From Planctomycetaceae bacterium (GTDB lineage Bacteria; Planctomycetota; Phycisphaerae; SM23-33): DNA of 38,317 nucleotides. The DNA is taken from positions 1 through 38,317 of the forward strand of contig JBDKTA010000053.1 of NCBI GenBank assembly GCA_039680605.1, written 5' to 3'. Below are positions 29,041-37,150 of the stretch, piece after piece. Each line of letters begins with the position of its first letter. Within the stretch, counting starts at the first letter, position 1. Both the position numbers and the translations under genes were made by a program. The notes beneath the pieces are model-generated. The model worked only from the letters and a program-made list of their open reading frames with translations. It did no database searches and was not told the DNA's origin.

Positions 29041-29085
29041 CCGCGCCTGTAGCTCAATGGATAGAGCATCGGTCTTCGGAACCGA
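29041..29085 (+). other. attL of element 1 (orphan 5' half of tRNA-Arg)
   Basis: 45 bases identical to 35791-35835. They contain the tRNA-Arg acceptor 5' strand, D-arm and anticodon arm, ending exactly at the last base of the anticodon stem. The 3' half is absent. This was probably the original chromosomal 5' half. A TTGACT-N17-GAAAAT promoter-like sequence at 28958-28986 could be its old promoter. Confidence 0.9.
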
Positions 29086-29296
29086 CGCCGCAAATCTGCA
29101 AGAGGCTGAAAAGACAGAGACTTACGGCGACAGTCCTGATTCACTCTGCCATTCGCTTTGCCATTTGGATGCAGAATTGACCCCCGATCTGGCCGAAATC
29201 GTGGCCGCCTGGGCGACGCTGCCCGAGCCGATCAAGGCCGGTATCGTGGCGATGGTCAAGACAGCCTGCCCCACCGGCGGAAAGAGGGGCGAATGA
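29084..29296 (+). pseudogene. Detached C-terminal tail of the element 1 integrase
   Basis: It is in frame with the integrase gene across the 45 bp att repeat. The excised circle would continue after codon 557 into this 70-codon tail, ending TPDLAEIVAAWATLPEPIK, then AGIVAMVKTACPTGG and a stop at 29296. The DLA.(I/V)V.AWPTLPE.IKAGI.AMV pattern is, to my recollection, common at the C-termini of planctomycete integrases. In the integrated state it is separated from the rest of the gene by the element. A stray in-frame ATG at 28913 could start it, but without a visible Shine-Dalgarno. Confidence 0.8.
29141..29163 (+). promoter_or_regulatory. Left arm-type repeat pair (candidate integrase site)
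   Basis: Two TYTGCCA boxes 12 bp apart. The 23-base block matches 35647-35669 at 21 positions and in the same orientation. It lies 56 bp inside the left att repeat. Confidence 0.6.
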
Positions 29297-29575
29297 TGCT
29301 GCAAGGCAGCGCCAAAGCCCCGGCGGCCCCAGTGGCGAAGCCCTTAACGGGTTTGCAGGCTGATAGCCAAGCCGCGGCGGGTGCGGCAAGGGTACGGGGG
29401 TGGGGTTGCCCCCAGCCGGGGGCGCTTGCTTGTGTGCATTACACCCCCTCCCACATTCTTTCGATGCGCGGCTTTTCCCAACTGTGCGGGGGCGAAGCGC
29501 CCCGATTACGCTCAACAGCGCAACGCTGCGCCAATCCCCCCCTCCGGCATGGAGGGTAATGATGGGAGCCCATAC

Positions 29576-29860
29576 ATGGAACAGGATGAAATTATCGACC
29601 GCTGCCAAGCCGTGACGGTTCAAGAGGCCGCGGACCTGATGCGCGTTTCGCGGCCGACGGTGACGAAGCTTATCAAAGGCCGCGCTCTGCCAAGCGTCCA
29701 GATCGGTCGCTGCCGACGGATCATGCGAGTGGACCTGGAGGAATTTCTTCGACGCAAAGCAACCCTCGGCTGGCGGTCATACCTTCCTGATGAACTGACG
29801 CCGGCGGATGTTGGACCGCACCCAGGCCATGCGGGCGAAGACGAGATCGTGCATTTCTAA
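29576..29860 (+). CDS. Excisionase-type helix-turn-helix protein
   Basis: 94 aa, start 29576 with GGAG seven bases upstream. The N-terminal half has the winged-HTH layout of the excisionase/AlpA superfamily: VTVQEAADLMRVSRPTVTKL, IKGRALPSVQIG, RRIMRVDLEEFLRRK. It is the first gene after the left att site and a candidate recombination directionality factor or regulator of the element. The ~280 bases before it hold no credible gene. Confidence 0.82.
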   Translation: MEQDEIIDRCQAVTVQEAADLMRVSRPTVTKLIKGRALPSVQIGRCRRIMRVDLEEFLRRKATLGWRSYLPDELTPADVGPHPGHAGEDEIVHF

Positions 29861-29975
29861 TCCTGAAAATCGCTTGGTTTGAGACGTGACAGGGAGAAGC
29901 CCGACGAAGATAATGCCAGCAAGGCCCATGCACGGGGCATGGGCAAAGCAGTTCTTTGCTGAAAGGGAAACAGCG

Positions 29976-30914
29976 ATGAGATCAAAACGGAACTGGGCAA
30001 TGGCGGCTGGCGTTCTTGCAGCGTCATTTGCGGGCGGGGCATTCTCGCACTGGATACTATTGCCGGATGAAGCCTCTGCACAAGGCTATCGCTATGTCGG
30101 CATAACCGGTGGGCATGTGACCCCAGCGGAATACCGAGACATGATTCGGTACAAAATCGCTGCATTTCGAAATGCAAATGCGACGAGCATCAGAATTGCC
30201 AAAGAGAACGGCAACAAAGAGGAACTTGCCACTCTTGAGCGAGACGCCCAGCAGATTCCAGAGAAGGCTGCGGAAGTGGTCCAACGGAACTTTCTCATTT
30301 TCCTGTCACCCGAGCAGTACGCAGCGATCAAAGGAAAGACTTTCAACACTTTTGGGGATGTCGTGAAGCTCTTGGCCGCTGCTGGTCTGCCTACCGATAC
30401 GTTCCCCAAGGACATCGATGAGGCCAGAGTTGCGACGCAGGAACAATATCTCGCTGGTGTGAAGCACCGAGAGGAACAACATCAGGCTACCATGGCCCGC
30501 GCGCAGGAGGCAAAGGAGTACCTTGAGAAGAACGGGCCTGGCGTGGCACAACCCGCAGGCAGGTTGGAACAGCGGAATGCGGAACAAACAATCAAGGTGA
30601 AGGAATTAGTTGCTGAACAAATAACTCTTGCTGATGCCGCAGGCAACGTCCGAGGGCAGTTGTCTATCGACAAGAAAGGTGACGGAATGCTGGTTCTGGC
30701 CGGCAAGAAAGACATCTACTTGATGTCTATGGTCGATCAGGACGGACATCCCGCTATGTACCTTAGCAACCCATCTGGACAGGGCGCAGTAGTGATGTGC
30801 GCCCAGCCGGCAATCGGCCAAATCGTGCTACAATCCGCCAAGGGCGCAATCGTTTTCGAAGCACTCCGCGGTCAGAACGGAAGCTATTTCCGCGAGACGA
30901 AACCCAAGCAGTAA
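29976..30914 (+). CDS. Membrane-anchored extracytoplasmic protein (element cargo)
   Basis: 312 aa. ATG 29976 is preceded by AAAGGG, and a longer frame upstream is disfavoured. A single N-terminal anchor or signal (WAMAAGVLAASFAGGAFSHW) is followed by a charged, mostly helical region (about 60-190: EEQHQATMARAQEAKEYLEK). The C-terminal half is beta-rich with repeated small turns (GNVRGQLSIDKKGDGMLVLA, DQDGHPAMYLSNPSGQGAVV). I do not recognise the family. Base composition is lower in GC than that of its neighbours, which fits horizontally acquired cargo. Confidence 0.75.
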   Translation: MRSKRNWAMAAGVLAASFAGGAFSHWILLPDEASAQGYRYVGITGGHVTPAEYRDMIRYKIAAFRNANATSIRIAKENGNKEELATLERDAQQIPEKAAEVVQRNFLIFLSPEQYAAIKGKTFNTFGDVVKLLAAAGLPTDTFPKDIDEARVATQEQYLAGVKHREEQHQATMARAQEAKEYLEKNGPGVAQPAGRLEQRNAEQTIKVKELVAEQITLADAAGNVRGQLSIDKKGDGMLVLAGKKDIYLMSMVDQDGHPAMYLSNPSGQGAVVMCAQPAIGQIVLQSAKGAIVFEALRGQNGSYFRETKPKQ

Positions 30915-30990
30915 CGAACCATCGACGACAAAGGCGGCATAGTTTGGGAAACCCCTGGCAACACGAAGAAACAATAGCTTGAATGGACCC

Positions 30991-31044
30991 TTCGGCGGGC
31001 TAGGCTTCGCGAGCCGAAAGCGGTACTCCGAACCGCTGCCCGCC
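30991..31044 (+). ncRNA. Potential three-way-junction RNA in a 5' leader
   Basis: GGCGGGC (30994-31000) pairs with GCCCGCC (31038-31044). Inside it are GGCT/AGCC with a 5-base loop and GCGGT/ACCGC with a 7-base loop ACTCCGA. An alternative pairing TTCGGC (30991-30996) with GCCGAA (31013-31018) would break the outer stem. It ends 37 bases before the 31082 start codon, so it could be a regulatory leader. It also recalls a tRNA lacking its T-arm. It could simply be a terminator of the upstream gene. Confidence 0.4.
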
Positions 31045-31081
31045 GGGATCCTTTTCGGAGCCGGAATCGGAGCCGGACAAG

Positions 31082-32098
31082 ATGGACAAGTCAGACGAAG
31101 ATAATCTTCCGCAGGGATGGCAGGGACTGCTCGACTATGCGCATGACCCCGAGGGATGGGTGACACTGGACACGGGCGGAGTATTGTCCAAATTGTACAA
31201 GGAATCGAACGGGCACGATGTTGCGGTTCTACTGGACTCGCTGGTCAATGAAGCGCGAATCGCATGGCACAAGACGACTGTCTTGCGTAGGGATGACAAC
31301 CCCGACCCCCGCGATGAGGAGACGGGCCTTGACTTCCAGTTGTCGATGCAGAGGCTATGGGTTCAAGTATTCACGGCAGTACGGGAAGCGGAACAATGGC
31401 TGTATCGAGCACTTGGCCCAGGGAATGATAATGAACTGCTCGATTGTGTAGGGGACGCCCTCCGAAACATTGCCCTCTGTCTCGATACGATGACTTCCCC
31501 TGACGACGATGTACCCGCGAAGGAAAGGTTATTTCCTGACACGCTGAAGGCTTTGCACGGGGCCGCCCGTGACTTTGAACGACTCTATGCCCGCGAGACT
31601 CAATCGGCCGGTGCTGGCAAAGTCCCGCTCTTGCCGCCGCCGCTGCCCAAACCAACAACGGCGATTCCCGATCCCTCGCCGATTCAAGACCTTCACGCAT
31701 ACCATGAAGCTGAGCGAGCGCGACGGGAACAAGCGGAACACATTGCCTGGTGGACCAATTTCTACCGCAAACAGGATGACGAAGGCCGGAAGGTGGAACT
31801 GCTGAGGCTAGGCATAACCGCGTCCGCCCCGGCGTCGCCGACGCCAGAGGAGATTCACCTTGAGGAAATCGACTTGGACATTCTGAAGGCGCTTGCGAAG
31901 CGGGGCCATGCGCTGAAGTGCATTGATCTGGCAACCGATGTTAGGGCCGATGAAGACAGAGTAAGCGCCCGGTTGAAGTACCTTGACGGCAAGGGGCTTG
32001 TTTCCTGGCCCATTGTTGGCAAGGGGAAACGCACTAGAAAAGGGGCAAGTATCACCGACGCTGGACGTGCAGAATTGAACCGGCTAAACCCCGCCTAA
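31082..32098 (+). CDS. Cargo protein with C-terminal winged-helix domain
   Basis: 338 aa, start 31082 after GGAG. Residues 1-175 are an acidic helical domain of unknown family. A Pro-rich linker (VPLLPPPLPKPTTAIPDPSP) and a charged helix with WWTNFYRKQDDEGRK follow. Residues about 265-335 form a winged HTH (LDILKALAKRGHALKCIDLA, then EDRVSARLKYLDGKGLVSW). It could be a regulator or a defence-type protein carried by the element. The function is not assigned. Confidence 0.75.
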   Translation: MDKSDEDNLPQGWQGLLDYAHDPEGWVTLDTGGVLSKLYKESNGHDVAVLLDSLVNEARIAWHKTTVLRRDDNPDPRDEETGLDFQLSMQRLWVQVFTAVREAEQWLYRALGPGNDNELLDCVGDALRNIALCLDTMTSPDDDVPAKERLFPDTLKALHGAARDFERLYARETQSAGAGKVPLLPPPLPKPTTAIPDPSPIQDLHAYHEAERARREQAEHIAWWTNFYRKQDDEGRKVELLRLGITASAPASPTPEEIHLEEIDLDILKALAKRGHALKCIDLATDVRADEDRVSARLKYLDGKGLVSWPIVGKGKRTRKGASITDAGRAELNRLNPA

Positions 32099-32120
32099 TC
32101 CCCGCCCTATACCCGCCCTA
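32087..32120 (+). repeat. Three tandem CCCCGCCCTA-type units
   Basis: 11-12 bp units span the end of the 31082 gene and the leader of the 32150 gene. A CTCGC/GCGAG inverted repeat (32133-32148) follows just before the next start. This is a candidate operator for the downstream replication and excision operon. Confidence 0.6.
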
Positions 32121-32149
32121 GCTTCTTCTATGCTCGCGACAATGCGAGT

Positions 32150-32488
32150 ATGGAAAATGAAAGAAGACTTCTACCAGCGGGGCCGACGGCGCGGCGACTT
32201 CACGTCACCATGCGCTGGCTGAAGGCTGAAGCACAAGCCGGACGCCTTCCGCACGTCAAGGCCGAAACCCGATTCCTCTTTGACCCCGAAGCCGTAACCG
32301 CCGTTTTGATGCGCTTGGCACAAGACCCGCCGCAATGGCGCGCCGACACCGCCGCCGATCTGGTGGCCGGGATGGTCAAGGCCCGACGCGCTGGCGATGC
32401 CGCCGCCGTCGCCCAGGCCCAGGGCGAGCTTGAACGGCTGGGCGTCAAGATTAGCTTCGCCGATGGACTGGAGGCCCGCCATGAGTGA
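32150..32488 (+). CDS. Excisionase-like DNA-binding protein
   Basis: 112 aa. The N-terminal ~50 residues resemble a winged-HTH Xis-type domain (LLPAGPTARRLHVTMRWLKA, then GRLPHVKAETRFLFDPEAV). A helical, Ala-rich region follows (VKARRAGDAAAVAQAQGELE). It has no clear Shine-Dalgarno, and the start lies one base after an inverted repeat. Its stop overlaps the next gene by 8 bases, so it belongs to the same operon as the AlpA-like and Prim-Pol genes. Confidence 0.75.
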   Translation: MENERRLLPAGPTARRLHVTMRWLKAEAQAGRLPHVKAETRFLFDPEAVTAVLMRLAQDPPQWRADTAADLVAGMVKARRAGDAAAVAQAQGELERLGVKISFADGLEARHE

Positions 32489-32702
32489 CGCGGCCCCTTT
32501 GCTGGTCAACGCGAGGCGCGCGGCGGAACTTTGCGGCGTGTCGAAAAGCTGCTGGTGGGCGCAGCTCGCGGCCGGGCGCGTACCACTGCCGCTCAGGCTG
32601 GGGCGGCGAACCTTATGGCGCAGCGCCGATCTGGCGGACTGGGTGGCCGACGGCTGCCCGCCGCGCGACCAGTGGCAACAGACGCGAGGGGGCCGACGAT
32701 GA
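32481..32702 (+). CDS. AlpA-type helix-turn-helix regulator
   Basis: 73 aa, nearly all one winged-HTH domain: NARRAAELCGVSKSCWWAQL, then LPLRLGRRTLWRSADLADWV. This is the common pattern of AlpA and excisionase proteins of integrative elements. It overlaps the preceding gene and ends in ATGA overlap with the Prim-Pol gene, so all three should be co-translated. Confidence 0.85.
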   Translation: MSDAAPLLVNARRAAELCGVSKSCWWAQLAAGRVPLPLRLGRRTLWRSADLADWVADGCPPRDQWQQTRGGRR

Positions 32703-33871
32703 AACCGCCAAGCCCACACAGCGCCGCCCTTGCCGCCGCCCTGGACGCGATCGCGCGCGGATGGTCGATCATCCCGGCGGACCCGGTGACGAAGAAGCCG
32801 CTGACGAATCCGCACACAGGCCGCCCGATGGGATGGGCGAAGTATCGGACCGCGCCGGCCGGTGAAGCCCAAGCCCGTCAATGGTTCGACCCGGACAGCC
32901 CGCCCCTTGTCGCCGTGATCCTGGGCGAAGCGTCCGGCGGACTGGTCTGTCGCGACTTCGACGGGGCCGCCGGGCGCAGCGCCTATGCGGCATGGGCGAA
33001 AGAGAATCCCGGCCTTGCCAAGAGCCTGCCGACGGCGAAGACGCCGGACGGGCTGCACGTCTACTTCCGTTCGACCTGGCAAGGATTCATCGACTGCGGC
33101 GACGGCGAACTGCGCGGCGATTCTGGGCACTACTGTTGCCTGCCCCCTGGCCCCGGACGTGATTGGATTATTCCCCTTCCCAAAGGCGACTTGCCACTTG
33201 TCGACAACCCCGTCGCGGTTTTTCACGCGACGCCGCGAGAATCTCTTGTAAACGCCTGTGACCGCTTGTGTCCGCCTGTGTCCGCTTGTAACCCTCTTGT
33301 ATGCTCTTGTGTGACAGTCGCGGAAGATGAGGACCGGATTCAGCGGGCAATCGAGGCGACGCTGCCGAGCGGTACGCGTCAGAGGCACAAGGCAATCTTC
33401 CACTTCGCCCGCCGCCTGAAGGGCATGGACGACGTGAAGAACGCCGCGCCGGCCGATCTGAAACACTTGGTCCGCGCATGGTGGAAGCGGGCGCTGCCGT
33501 TCATCCAGACAAAGGACTGGACGGAGACATGGGTGGACTTTGTCGAGGCATGGGACCGTGTACAGCACCCCGCCGACGACAGGCAGTTGAAAGACTGCCT
33601 TGCACGAGCGAAGGCCCGCCCTGTGGCTGGAATCGAGAATCCCATTATGGCGACCGTGGCCGCCCTATGCAGAGAACTCCAGATTGTTCATGGCAGCGAT
33701 CCGTTCTTTTTGAGCGGGTATAAACTGGCCGGACTGCTTGAAATCGAACACCGCAAGGCGGCGCGATGGCTGAGGCACCTGGAGCGCGGCGAGAGAATCA
33801 TCCGCCGCGTGAAGGTCTATTCCCTTGAGGAACGCAAGGCCGCAGAGTATTTGTACATCGGCCCGGAATAA
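32699..33871 (+). CDS. Bifunctional primase-polymerase (Prim-Pol, AEP superfamily)
   Basis: 390 aa. The start at 32699 overlaps the AlpA-like stop. The N-terminal AEP domain has a WAKYRT entry, the metal-binding pair in GLVCRDFDGAAG and the second motif in DSGHYCCLPPGPGR, as in replication proteins of satellites and integrative elements. A Cys-rich stretch at residues 183-205 is encoded by 10 bp DNA repeats. The C-terminal part (about 220-390) is helical and ends in a winged-helix-like region (LAGLLEIEHRKAARWLRHLE). No helicase domain is present, so a host helicase would be needed. Likely role: replication of the excised circle. Confidence 0.85.
   Translation: MKPPSPHSAALAAALDAIARGWSIIPADPVTKKPLTNPHTGRPMGWAKYRTAPAGEAQARQWFDPDSPPLVAVILGEASGGLVCRDFDGAAGRSAYAAWAKENPGLAKSLPTAKTPDGLHVYFRSTWQGFIDCGDGELRGDSGHYCCLPPGPGRDWIIPLPKGDLPLVDNPVAVFHATPRESLVNACDRLCPPVSACNPLVCSCVTVAEDEDRIQRAIEATLPSGTRQRHKAIFHFARRLKGMDDVKNAAPADLKHLVRAWWKRALPFIQTKDWTETWVDFVEAWDRVQHPADDRQLKDCLARAKARPVAGIENPIMATVAALCRELQIVHGSDPFFLSGYKLAGLLEIEHRKAARWLRHLERGERIIRRVKVYSLEERKAAEYLYIGPE
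33245..33315 (+). repeat. Seven tandem 10-bp repeats (iteron-like) inside the Prim-Pol gene
   Basis: Units such as CTTGTGTCCG, CCTGTGTCCG and CTTGTAAACG repeat at 10 bp steps, with one step of 11. Ten is not a multiple of three, so the repetition is at DNA level and not a protein repeat. One-turn phasing is what a multimeric DNA-binding protein would need. Confidence 0.85.
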
Positions 33872-33885
33872 TTCCGGGAATGTAC

Positions 33886-33915
33886 TTGACCGGTTACCAA
33901 GCATCCGCGTAGAAT
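33886..33915 (+). promoter_or_regulatory. Promoter of the Cro/CI-like gene, likely leaderless
   Basis: TTGACC, 18 bases, then TAGAAT. The ATG of the regulator begins seven bases after the -10 box, so transcription would start at or next to the start codon. No Shine-Dalgarno is present. Confidence 0.65.
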
Positions 33916-33922
33916 ACCGACG

Positions 33923-34159
33923 ATGGGTAGAAAACGAATCAAGTTGAGCGACCAAATCAGGCGGGCGGTGAACCAGTCCGCCCTGTCGCGATATGCGATG
34001 TGCAAGGCCGCGAAGATCGATCAAGCGACCTTTTCCCGATTCATGCACGGGGTAGTGGGGCTGTCGATGGCGACGCTGGACGATCTGGCCGACGTTCTGG
34101 GCCTGGACCTTGCCCCGCTGCCCGACAAGCCCAAGGCCAGCAAAACGAAGGGAAGGTGA
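33923..34159 (+). CDS. Cro/CI-type helix-turn-helix regulator
   Basis: 78 aa. It is an HTH domain of the XRE class: SRYAMCKAAKIDQATFSRFM, then GLSMATLDDLADVLGLDL, with a short basic tail (KPKASKTKGR). It lies three bases upstream of the integrase gene and has its own strong promoter, apparently leaderless. It is a plausible repressor controlling integrase expression and the upstream operon. Confidence 0.85.
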   Translation: MGRKRIKLSDQIRRAVNQSALSRYAMCKAAKIDQATFSRFMHGVVGLSMATLDDLADVLGLDLAPLPDKPKASKTKGR

Positions 34160-34162
34160 ACC

Positions 34163-35842
34163 GTGAGACTCTACCGCCCGACCTACAAGACGCCCCAGGG
34201 CAAGCGACTGTCGCCGACGTGGTGGATGGACTTCGCCGATTCCAACGGCCGCCGGTGGCGCTTCCCCGCTTTGACGGACAAGCGCCAGACCGAAGCGATG
34301 GGGCGCAACGTCGAAAAGCTGCTGGCGCTGAAACAGAGCGGCGACCCGCTGCCGCCCGATCTGTTGCGATGGGTTGAAGCGGTATCGCCGGACTTCCGCG
34401 GCCGCCTGGCCGAAGCGGGCTTGATCGACGCGGACCGCGCCGGCGGCGCTGCCGCCTTGATGGTGCTGGACGATCAAGACGCCGTGATCGGCGGACACCT
34501 GGCGGACTTCCTGGCCGACGCCGAAGCGCGGGGCGTGTCTCCCGTCCAGCGCCAAATGCTCGCCCAGCGCATACGCGACATGCTGCGCAAGGCGGGGGCG
34601 CGATGGCTGCGCGACCTGTCGGCCAGCAAGATTCAGGCCGCTATCGCCGCCCTGGGCGAGCCGACAGACGACAGGCCCAAGGGACTGAGCAATCAGTCGA
34701 TGAAGCACTACGTCCGCGCCCTCAAACAGTTCTCGCGATGGCTGCAACGCGAACGGCGGACGGCCGAAGATACCTTGATCGGCGTCAAGGGCTACAACGC
34801 CGAAACCGACAAGCGCCACGAGCGCCGCGGATTCACCGCCGCCGAAATGTCGGTACTGCTGGGCGCGACCGCCAAAGCCCCGCGGCGCTGGGGCATGGAT
34901 GGCAAGGCCCGCGCCGCCGCCTACCGCCTGGCGTTTTCATCGGGGCTTCGCCGCAATGAAATCCGCACCTTGACGGGCGACAGCTTCCGCCTGGACGACA
35001 CGCCCCCGACCGTGACGGTTGAAGCGGGATACTCCAAGCATCGACGGCGCGACGTGCAGCCGCTACCGGCGGACGTGGCGGAAGCCCTGGGCGAATATCT
35101 GGCGACGGCCGACGCCGCCCGCCCGTTTGCCCTGCCCGACAAGACGGGCAAGATGCTGCACGAAGACATGGCCGACGCCCGCGCCGCCTGGATTGCCGAT
35201 GAGCGTATCAGCGCCGATGAGCGGCAGGCGCGGGCAGAAGATGGCGACTTCCTCAAGCCCCGCGATTCGGCGCGGCTGGTGCTGGACTTCCACAGCTTCC
35301 GGCATGGATTCGTGACGGCGATCTGCCGGGCCGCCGTGTCGCCCCGCGTGATGATGGAACTGGCCCGCCACAGCGACCCGCGATTGACGATGCAGCGCTA
35401 CAGCCGCGTCGCCGTCGCCGATTCCGCCCTGGCGCTGGACGCCCTGCCCAAGCTGGACGCCGACGACGCCGACGCCCAAGCCCAACCCGCCGCGCTGAGG
35501 GCGACAGGGACCGACGATGCCCGCGCAACAGTTATCGCCCCCAAGGCCGCGCCAGACGCGCCACGCTGCCCCACAATCGCCGATCGCGCGGCCGATGATG
35601 CAACGCCCGCCGATACCGCCGCCGACGCCGCCGGACAGGGGCAAAATCACTTTGCCATTCCCTTTGCCAAATCGTGCGGGCGCAACGGTGATTCGGTGGA
35701 CTGCAATGGACGGACGGGCGAATTGCCTGCGCGACGGAATAACCTTGTTTCACGCGGGAAAGCCGATAGAATCCAAGGGAAGCAACACCCCCGCGCCTGT
35801 AGCTCAATGGATAGAGCATCGGTCTTCGGAACCGAGGGTTAG
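34163..35842 (+). CDS. Tyrosine recombinase (integrase) of element 1; gene spans its own att site
   Basis: 559 aa as integrated, start GTG 34163 after GGAAGG. It has an N-terminal arm-type region, a core-binding domain (about 105-205) and a catalytic domain with R263 (SSGLRRNE), K292 (GYSKHRRRD), H377-x-x-R380 (HSFRH), H403 (LARHSDP) and nucleophile Y413 (MQRYSRV). The long tail after 420 contains the right arm site, a promoter for the tRNA and the att repeat. It is translated through the tRNA as ACSSMDRASVFGTEG, and the stop TAG comes from the tRNA 3' half. In the excised circle the frame would instead continue for 70 codons (29084-29296), giving 627 aa. Confidence 0.93.
   Translation: MRLYRPTYKTPQGKRLSPTWWMDFADSNGRRWRFPALTDKRQTEAMGRNVEKLLALKQSGDPLPPDLLRWVEAVSPDFRGRLAEAGLIDADRAGGAAALMVLDDQDAVIGGHLADFLADAEARGVSPVQRQMLAQRIRDMLRKAGARWLRDLSASKIQAAIAALGEPTDDRPKGLSNQSMKHYVRALKQFSRWLQRERRTAEDTLIGVKGYNAETDKRHERRGFTAAEMSVLLGATAKAPRRWGMDGKARAAAYRLAFSSGLRRNEIRTLTGDSFRLDDTPPTVTVEAGYSKHRRRDVQPLPADVAEALGEYLATADAARPFALPDKTGKMLHEDMADARAAWIADERISADERQARAEDGDFLKPRDSARLVLDFHSFRHGFVTAICRAAVSPRVMMELARHSDPRLTMQRYSRVAVADSALALDALPKLDADDADAQAQPAALRATGTDDARATVIAPKAAPDAPRCPTIADRAADDATPADTAADAAGQGQNHFAIPFAKSCGRNGDSVDCNGRTGELPARRNNLVSRGKADRIQGKQHPRACSSMDRASVFGTEG
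35647..35669 (+). promoter_or_regulatory. Right arm-type repeat pair (candidate integrase site)
   Basis: Two TTTGCCA boxes 12 bp apart, 122 bp before the att repeat and inside the integrase gene. It matches the left pair at 29141-29163. The two copies are read in different codon phases, so the conservation is not at protein level. Confidence 0.6.
35745..35772 (+). promoter_or_regulatory. Promoter supplied by element 1 for tRNA-Arg
   Basis: TTGTTT, 16 bases, TAGAAT, with the tRNA beginning 20 bases after the -10 box. It lies inside the integrase coding sequence. The same TAGAAT box is used by the element's regulator gene at 33910. Confidence 0.6.
35791..35835 (+). other. attR of element 1
   Basis: Identical over 45 bases to 29041-29085. 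It is the 5' half of the intact tRNA-Arg. The copies diverge at the first base after the anticodon stem (35836 against 29086). Confidence 0.92.
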
Positions 35843-35865
35843 AGGTTCGACTCCTCTCAGGCGTA
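35793..35865 (+). tRNA. tRNA-Arg(UCG), intact
   Basis: A 73-base cloverleaf: acceptor GCGCCTG/CAGGCGT, D-stem GCTC/GAGC, anticodon stem TCGGT/ACCGA with loop CTTCGGA (anticodon TCG, reads CGA), variable loop GGGTT, T-stem AGAGG/CCTCT with TTCGACT, discriminator A. CCA is not encoded. The first acceptor pair is G1-U72 rather than G-C. Both element integrase genes terminate inside it. Confidence 0.95.
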
Positions 35866-37150
35866 CTGGCAGCGAGCCGGTGTCACAAGCACCGGCTCGC
35901 ATTGTTTCGCAAGGTCCGGCACAAGCGCCCGCCGCTGCATTACTTAGGATGCCTTGCGAATTCTTGCGACTCGATGCGATTCCCTGCGGCGTCGGATTCG
36001 GCGTCGCCGTTTTGACAGGCGCGGCGTCGGATTTGGCGTCGGATTTGGCGTCGCCCCCGGTGACCACTTCGGCGTACTCTCGCAGCGTCAGATCGTAGTG
36101 CCGCCGGCTGATCTGTACCGCATGACCGATCCACGCCGAGACCTGATATTCCGGCACACCCAGGCCAAGCCAATTCGTCTCGCACGTGGCCCGCATGTTC
36201 TGGAACGGCTTGGGGAACGGCTTGACGCCGCCACGATCCATGATGCGGTGTAACTGTGTGCGGAGGTTCGCACCGCACCCCCTGTAACGCGTGATGACGA
36301 ACTCCGCCCCTGCGTCCACCTGGGAGAACACATCGAGCAGCAGCCCGTACAACGGCGGGCAGATCGGCACGTCCCGCACGTCGCCGCTTTCCCGCTCCGT
36401 CTTGCTCGACTTCACCCGCAGATGCTTGCTCGACCAGTTCACATCGGCCCACCGCAACGCCAGGACTTCCGAGGGACACCGCAGCCCCGCGTGGTACGCA
36501 AGGCCCACGATCAGCCGCCATTGTGCATCGGGGCAGTTGTCGATCATTGCCGCCGCTTCCGCCGCCGTCACGTGATGCTGTCGCTGGCGGTTCACGTAGT
36601 CGGAACTCTTGAGGCGTTTACACGCATTCTCGCTGAGCAGCTTTGCCCGCACAGCCGCGTTGAAGAACTGCTTCGCACGGCGGCAGTGCCCCCGCACTGT
36701 AGCCTCGCTGAGCTTGCTCCGCAACTGGACAGCGTAGGAATCGGCGTCCGCTTCCGTCACGTCACCGAGCAGCTTCTCGCGGCCGAGAAATGCAATCAGG
36801 GTGCGCTCCGTCTGCCGCAGATTCGAGATCGTGTTGAACTTCGCGTCGGTGCGGCCCGCGATGTACGAGGCCACCCACGCGGCCACCGTCACGCGATCCG
36901 AAGGCCGAGCATCGACCAGGCCGAAATCCTCCAGCCGCCGCCGCACGTCGTCAGAGATCGACGACAACCATTCAGCCGTCGCAGGCGCCAGCGGCGAACC
37001 GTAGGCACGAGACGCCCGCAGGTCCTTCACAAAACGCTCGATGCCTTCAGCCTGTTTAAACGCCATCTTCCCAAGACGCCAAGTCCGCCGCCTGCCGTCC
37101 AGTCCCAAGAACTGCACCCGCACGCCGCCGCCACGCTCTTTGTTTGCCAT
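35804..37150 (-). CDS. Tyrosine recombinase (integrase) of element 2
   Basis: 448 aa. The start at 37150 is two bases after the upstream HTH stop, and a longer frame to 37318 is only shadow. The core-binding domain is about 95-180. The catalytic domain has Arg in YHAGLRCPSEVLALRW, Lys in RVKSSKTERE, then QNMRATCET where most relatives have HxLR (so the first His is replaced), H in WIGHAVQ and Tyr in RRHYDLTLRE. The tail, after a GDAKSDAKSDAAP repeat, runs through the terminator and tRNA (RGVEPLTLGSEDRCSIH) and stops in the tRNA D-arm at 35804. It overlaps the first integrase gene convergently by 39 bp. Confidence 0.92.
   Translation of the reverse strand: MANKERGGGVRVQFLGLDGRRRTWRLGKMAFKQAEGIERFVKDLRASRAYGSPLAPATAEWLSSISDDVRRRLEDFGLVDARPSDRVTVAAWVASYIAGRTDAKFNTISNLRQTERTLIAFLGREKLLGDVTEADADSYAVQLRSKLSEATVRGHCRRAKQFFNAAVRAKLLSENACKRLKSSDYVNRQRQHHVTAAEAAAMIDNCPDAQWRLIVGLAYHAGLRCPSEVLALRWADVNWSSKHLRVKSSKTERESGDVRDVPICPPLYGLLLDVFSQVDAGAEFVITRYRGCGANLRTQLHRIMDRGGVKPFPKPFQNMRATCETNWLGLGVPEYQVSAWIGHAVQISRRHYDLTLREYAEVVTGGDAKSDAKSDAAPVKTATPNPTPQGIASSRKNSQGILSNAAAGACAGPCETMRAGACDTGSLPVRLRGVEPLTLGSEDRCSIH
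35872..35900 (+). terminator. Rho-independent-like terminator after tRNA-Arg
   Basis: GCGAGCCGGTG and CACCGGCTCGC form a perfect 11 bp stem with loop TCACAAG, followed by ATTGTTT. It begins seven bases after the tRNA. On the other strand it encodes part of the second integrase's tail, so it probably belongs to element 2. Confidence 0.8.
35955..35989. repeat. Four TGCGR boxes at exact 10-bp spacing
   Basis: TGCGA at 35955, 35965 and 35975 and TGCGG at 35985, inside the integrase 2 coding region. One stretch, TTGCGACTCGATGCGA, recurs with one change at 37804. Phasing at 10 bp within a gene points to a protein-binding site. Confidence 0.75.

Follow-up and report, generated by a model that had tools for sequence, protein, structure and literature searches.

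An integrative element with its attachment site inside the integrase gene

We analyzed a 38,317-nucleotide stretch of DNA from a planctomycete genome (hereafter the window), in which sequence comparison revealed a perfect direct repeat of 45 bp, identical at 45/45 positions between 29041-29085 and 35791-35835 and with unrelated flanks. The 6.75 kb between the two copies form an integrative element sited at tRNA-Arg(TCG); it has direct repeats at both ends, one of them within an intact tRNA gene, as is characteristic of tRNA-targeted elements, and an M16 peptidase gene constitutes its left flank. The features of the element are as follows.

29041-29085, + strand: attL core, the left end of the integrated element, which copies the 5' part of tRNA-Arg(TCG) and matches 35791-35835 at 45/45 positions
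29086-29296, + strand: detached integrase tail, 70 codons in the integrase frame plus TGA at 29294-29296, with a conserved, predicted hairpin domain at about 29180-29275
29381-29860, + strand: excisionase-family helix-turn-helix protein, the first gene past the tail (TIGR01764 excise, 9.8e-13; HTH_17, 8.5e-13)
29886-30914, + strand: element ORF with a weak match to PHROG 32501 (2.1e-5)
31082-32098, + strand: element ORF with a weak match to a transcriptional-regulator PHROG
32531-33871, + strand: Prim-Pol primase/polymerase of the element (PF09250, 1e-12)
34163-35842, + strand: tyrosine integrase, integrated short form, 559 aa (PF00589, 2.5e-11), with the catalytic domain at about residues 245-417, including Tyr413
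35791-35835, + strand: attR core, within the integrase ORF, spanning tRNA nucleotides 1-43
35793-35866, + strand: intact tRNA-Arg(TCG) rebuilt at attR, its 5' part element-derived and its 3' part chromosomal, which provides the TAG closing the short integrase

The initial annotation had laid its emphasis on the 3' half of the tRNA, in which the integrase frame ends; what the att copies contain is the 5' portion of tRNA-Arg(TCG), which the element contributes. Among the element ORFs searched, no structural phage genes were recognized, and the gene content between the repeats thus identifies an integrative element and not a complete tailed phage. A short ORF on the + strand at 33923-34159 (MGRKRIKLSDQIRRAVNQSALSRYAM...) looks like an XRE-type helix-turn-helix regulator and ends 4 bp before the integrase start. 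Elsewhere in the window's own genome, a 60-bp stretch (G000:C25:14350-14409) matches a portion of the tRNA-Arg query at 92%. We saw no excised circle of the window element, and a search for the empty attB in 14 relatives that have the left-flank M16 peptidase found no tRNA after the peptidase within the stretch examined.

The integrase ORF opens with a GTG, crosses the att core at 35791-35835, gains Glu-Gly and ends at the TAG at 35840-35842 inside the tRNA. Both att copies are entered at the same codon phase, and joining the two ends yields a single ORF of 627 aa. These coordinates agree throughout with the initial annotation, which had described the 45-bp repeat, the 559-aa frame, the 70-codon tail and the 627-aa join. 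The enzyme scores 44 bits against PF00589 (cut-off 27.1), and R250, H377, R380, H403 and Y413 are invariant in the family alignment, giving the tyrosine recombinase pattern R...HxxR...H...Y; Tyr413 lies upstream of the core and is thus kept in the short form. The Pfam search of the integrase returned PF00589 and a sub-threshold SAM-like match only, with Phage_integr_3 (PF16795) absent. In the same alignment, a short motif, (R/K)ATGTD, stands right after the catalytic domain and ahead of the linker in most of the family (e.g., in the relatives L127, L126 and L316).

Relatives across the planctomycetes

All comparisons rest on assemblies, many of them metagenome-assembled genomes, and within this material the integrase family was present in 112 of 392 planctomycete genomes searched. 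Most ORFs of the first 30 loci run into a tRNA, and among 137 non-redundant related planctomycete integrase ORFs, 101 end inside a tRNA or tmRNA gene. The targets of these 101 comprise 17 tRNA types and the tmRNA, entered in antisense by 90 ORFs and in sense by 11, and none of these tRNA-overlapping chromosomal ORFs (0/101) has the tail attached. Going by their record titles, the 79 named relatives in GTDB genomes are planctomycetes, except for one labelled just 'bacterium'.

We sought att pairs as repeats between the integrase end and upstream DNA, without using the tail. Among the 36 candidate pairs, the tail is found at the opposite element end, in frame with the integrase in 29 and in another frame in one, while six have no tail; of the 26 pairs in which an annotated tRNA and the core overlap, 24 have the tail in frame, and nearly all pairs have one boundary of the core at the anticodon arm. 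The tail profile was built from the first 18 tails found, and among the att pairs left out of profile building tails are in frame in 12 of 13. Some of these latter loci were chosen for holding a tail, a choice that does not bias the frame. Across 29 cores, the integrase frame is open in every case (29/29) and the other two frames in 17/29 and 18/29, with a median open length from the core start of 80 codons in the integrase frame versus 20 and 17 in the others. An excisionase-like gene beside the tail is not a general trait by blastp with the window protein, being found in only 3 of 28 relatives.

Several loci depart from the common arrangement. At L271 the tail is in another frame, and at L036 no tail follows the inner core of a tandem. 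Both L036 and L081 hold tandem elements at one tRNA, and L081 shows an in-frame fusion between an integrase remnant and the tail of the next element. The tails at L252, L295 and L303 sit beside the integrase gene, out of frame after the tRNA-like stretch, and may reflect decay, assembly errors or something else. At L094 (14716-16425, reverse strand), a chromosomal integrase has a divergent tail attached, with no tRNA nearby, and possibly represents a state that preceded the move of attP into the gene. Decay or a tandem arrangement may account for L271, L036, L252, L295, L303 and L094.

The detached tail and its predicted structure

The initial annotation had noted a coherent protein pattern in the detached tail, and the relatives bear this out with a conserved domain at the predicted place and in frame. 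Tails homologous to that of the window sit at attL of relatives and share the consensus DPxLxxIVxAWPxLPxxIKxAILALV, in which the Trp is invariant across the first 18 tails. In the window, the tail profile matches 29183-29275 (E 2.9e-15, with the window sequence included in the profile). The relatives show that these 70 codons encode a conserved domain and are not a chance open frame, and dN/dS for the domain is about 0.27 and 0.49 in two close pairs with few sites. Matches to the profile occur in 105 of 392 planctomycete genomes; among those listed, all but one lie in frames shorter than 400 aa, i.e., they are detached. Pfam and PDB gave no significant sequence match that would place the tail in a known domain, and the Foldseek matches for the structure are ordinary tyrosine recombinases.

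For structure prediction, we modelled the natural full-length protein of L127 with AlphaFold. The N-terminal and catalytic parts are predicted with confidence, the linker at residues 423-531 is disordered (pLDDT < 50), and the tail forms a predicted two-helix hairpin (helices 538-549 and 552-569, pLDDT about 94). The attP-encoded residues, placed at about 482-494 by the tRNA match, fall within the linker, and such a position in a disordered segment would explain why any tRNA sequence is tolerated in either orientation.

Free and circular forms

In three IMG/VR contigs (L126, L127 and L169), the catalytic domain, a tRNA-like stretch and the tail are joined in a single ORF with no tRNA near. The tRNA likeness of the stretch is strong in L126 (98% over 44 nt), short in L127 and weak in L169; in L127 and L169, phage-type genes flank the integrase gene on both sides, with a terminase on one. 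As these contigs may be fragments, they likely, rather than provenly, represent the free state. The initial annotation had made its reading depend on related full-length integrases carrying the tail, and they do. A prophage of 40.5 kb carries an in-frame tail at the end opposite the integrase gene.

The most clear-cut free form is L316 (IMGVR_UViG_3300035133_000029), which spans 9,200 bp and has an exact 99-bp terminal repeat. We read it as a circle of 9,101 bp, since such repeats are usually circular, although a tandem array could also yield them. The terminal repeat falls within the integrase gene, and the ORF across the join is 580 aa from stop to stop, including a tRNA-like attP and the tail. 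The prediction of a long integrase on the circle and a short one on the chromosome is thus borne out by relatives, the long form in this contig among them. Among GenBank phages and PLSDB plasmids, we found no free copies.

Discussion

In ordinary tRNA-targeted tyrosine integrases, attP lies beside the integrase gene and not within it; the planctomycete elements resemble them in their PF00589 enzyme, the tRNA target, the crossover region at the anticodon arm and the rebuilding of the target by the element. In the integration-dependent immunity of mycobacteriophages, attP lies within the repressor gene and integration alters the C-terminus of that regulatory protein; there the repressor is altered, whereas here it is the integrase. 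The closest precedent, which the initial annotation missed, is Myxococcus phage Mx8, whose integrase was reportedly found by Tojo in 1996 and Magrini in 1999 to be less active in its prophage form. The Mx8 attP is located inside the integrase coding sequence, integration creates a new 3' end of the gene and modifies rather than abolishes integrase activity, and the principle in Mx9 is similar (PMC6070905). The window integrase shares both the internal attP and the C-terminus replaced by integration, and Mx8 Int has a short antisense-tRNA-like stretch ahead of its long C-terminal part. That part, however, is unlike the planctomycete tail: the tail profile gave no significant match to Mx8 Int (best domain 0.6 bits), so that the two are not detectably related, and the catalytic part is just marginally similar to the planctomycete family (best E 0.004). 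Unlike the Mx8 and Mx9 parts, the planctomycete tail is a phylum-conserved domain, associated with many tRNA types and with both small elements and phages.

The initial annotation had drawn a parallel with SSV-type archaeal integrases, in which the site lies inside the gene and integration splits the gene between the element ends, with the catalytic domain on the C-terminal piece that is split off and the resulting fragments reported inactive; such self-disrupting recombinases have been termed exclusively archaeal (PMC8371274). The parallel holds for a recombination site within the integrase gene and fails for the separated part: the planctomycete catalytic domain stays with the gene start, and only the C-terminal hairpin is removed. 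The principle is known from Mx8 and Mx9; a phylum-wide bacterial family that loses a conserved domain at integration appears to be new, and we found no paper on the planctomycete integrase family in the open-access literature.

Integration takes the hairpin off the encoded integrase, and excision would restore it. The full-length protein comprises the catalytic domain, a long linker that is predicted to be disordered and whose codons take in the attP core (half a tRNA, in sense or antisense), and the conserved C-terminal domain, a predicted hairpin. When the element recombines at the anticodon arm of a tRNA gene, the catalytic part stays at one element end, with a stop codon from the tRNA or flanking host DNA, and the hairpin codons are stranded at the opposite end, some 4-40 kb off. 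The initial annotation had suggested that the switch could tune activity, stability or directionality. In the mechanism that we propose, the hairpin may be needed for, or strongly favor, integration by the circular form, and its loss would lower or redirect the activity of the integrase encoded by the integrated copy. Insertion would thus act as a self-recording latch that stabilizes the integrated state, as has been proposed for Mx8, and the long gene would be restored when the tail-less form, perhaps helped by the excisionase-like protein, excises the element. We infer that the tail works as a latch or a switch of directionality, and consider it probable that these elements form a phylum-wide planctomycete family with attP inside the integrase gene, in which hairpin removal acts as an integration latch. 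A further reading, which we hold to be doubtful, is that the hairpin is a built-in integration factor whose presence or absence is written by recombination, with direction set by the gene's own state and not by a separate directionality factor.

Instead of an on/off latch, the loss of the tail could set direction, the long form integrating and the tail-less form being a dedicated excision enzyme, with a weaker or no need for a separate directionality factor. Integration leaves the catalytic domain whole and keeps its start codon in place, the lost part is modelled as a separate hairpin on a flexible linker, and by analogy the change in Mx8 modifies and does not abolish activity (PMC6070905), which makes this switch a possible reading; the window element, however, still encodes an excisionase-family protein. 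We regard as unlikely the proposal that the arrangement is a matter of structural economy, with attP and integrase forming a compact portable module and the tail serving a general role (stability, multimer contacts) that the element can do without once it has integrated. A core in a disordered linker accepts 17 tRNA types, different frames and both orientations, easing target changes, and a compact-module argument has been made for archaeal suicidal integrases (PMC8371274), but the tail is kept across the phylum even though an attP after the stop codon would be easy, and the overlap is seen in three quarters of the integrase family.

The detached tail might also be made as a small protein in the integrated state and act in trans on the short integrase. 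An in-frame ATG, GTG or TTG precedes the conserved Trp in 26 of 29 detached tails, yet the start positions are not conserved, are mostly TTG or GTG and in few cases have a ribosome-binding-like sequence, so that such a peptide is highly improbable; the absence of a conserved start speaks against a separate tail gene. Finally, there is next to no chance that the tail is an accidental open frame joined to the integrase gene in GC-rich DNA. The window alone could not exclude this, its +1 frame being open as well for 45 codons; it is ruled out by the conserved in-frame tail in 29 of 36 att pairs, together with the contig closed to a circle by exact terminal repeats.

In this large bacterial family, a conserved domain is the removable part at each integration, and nearly the whole tRNA set serves as targets. 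The family offers many natural replicates for testing how a recombinase can keep a record of integration within its own sequence, and might supply genetic tools with state-dependent recombinases. Annotation is affected too, as integration generates the C-termini of chromosomal integrases in planctomycetes, which are often antisense-tRNA peptides, and the detached tails will be overlooked or labelled spurious.
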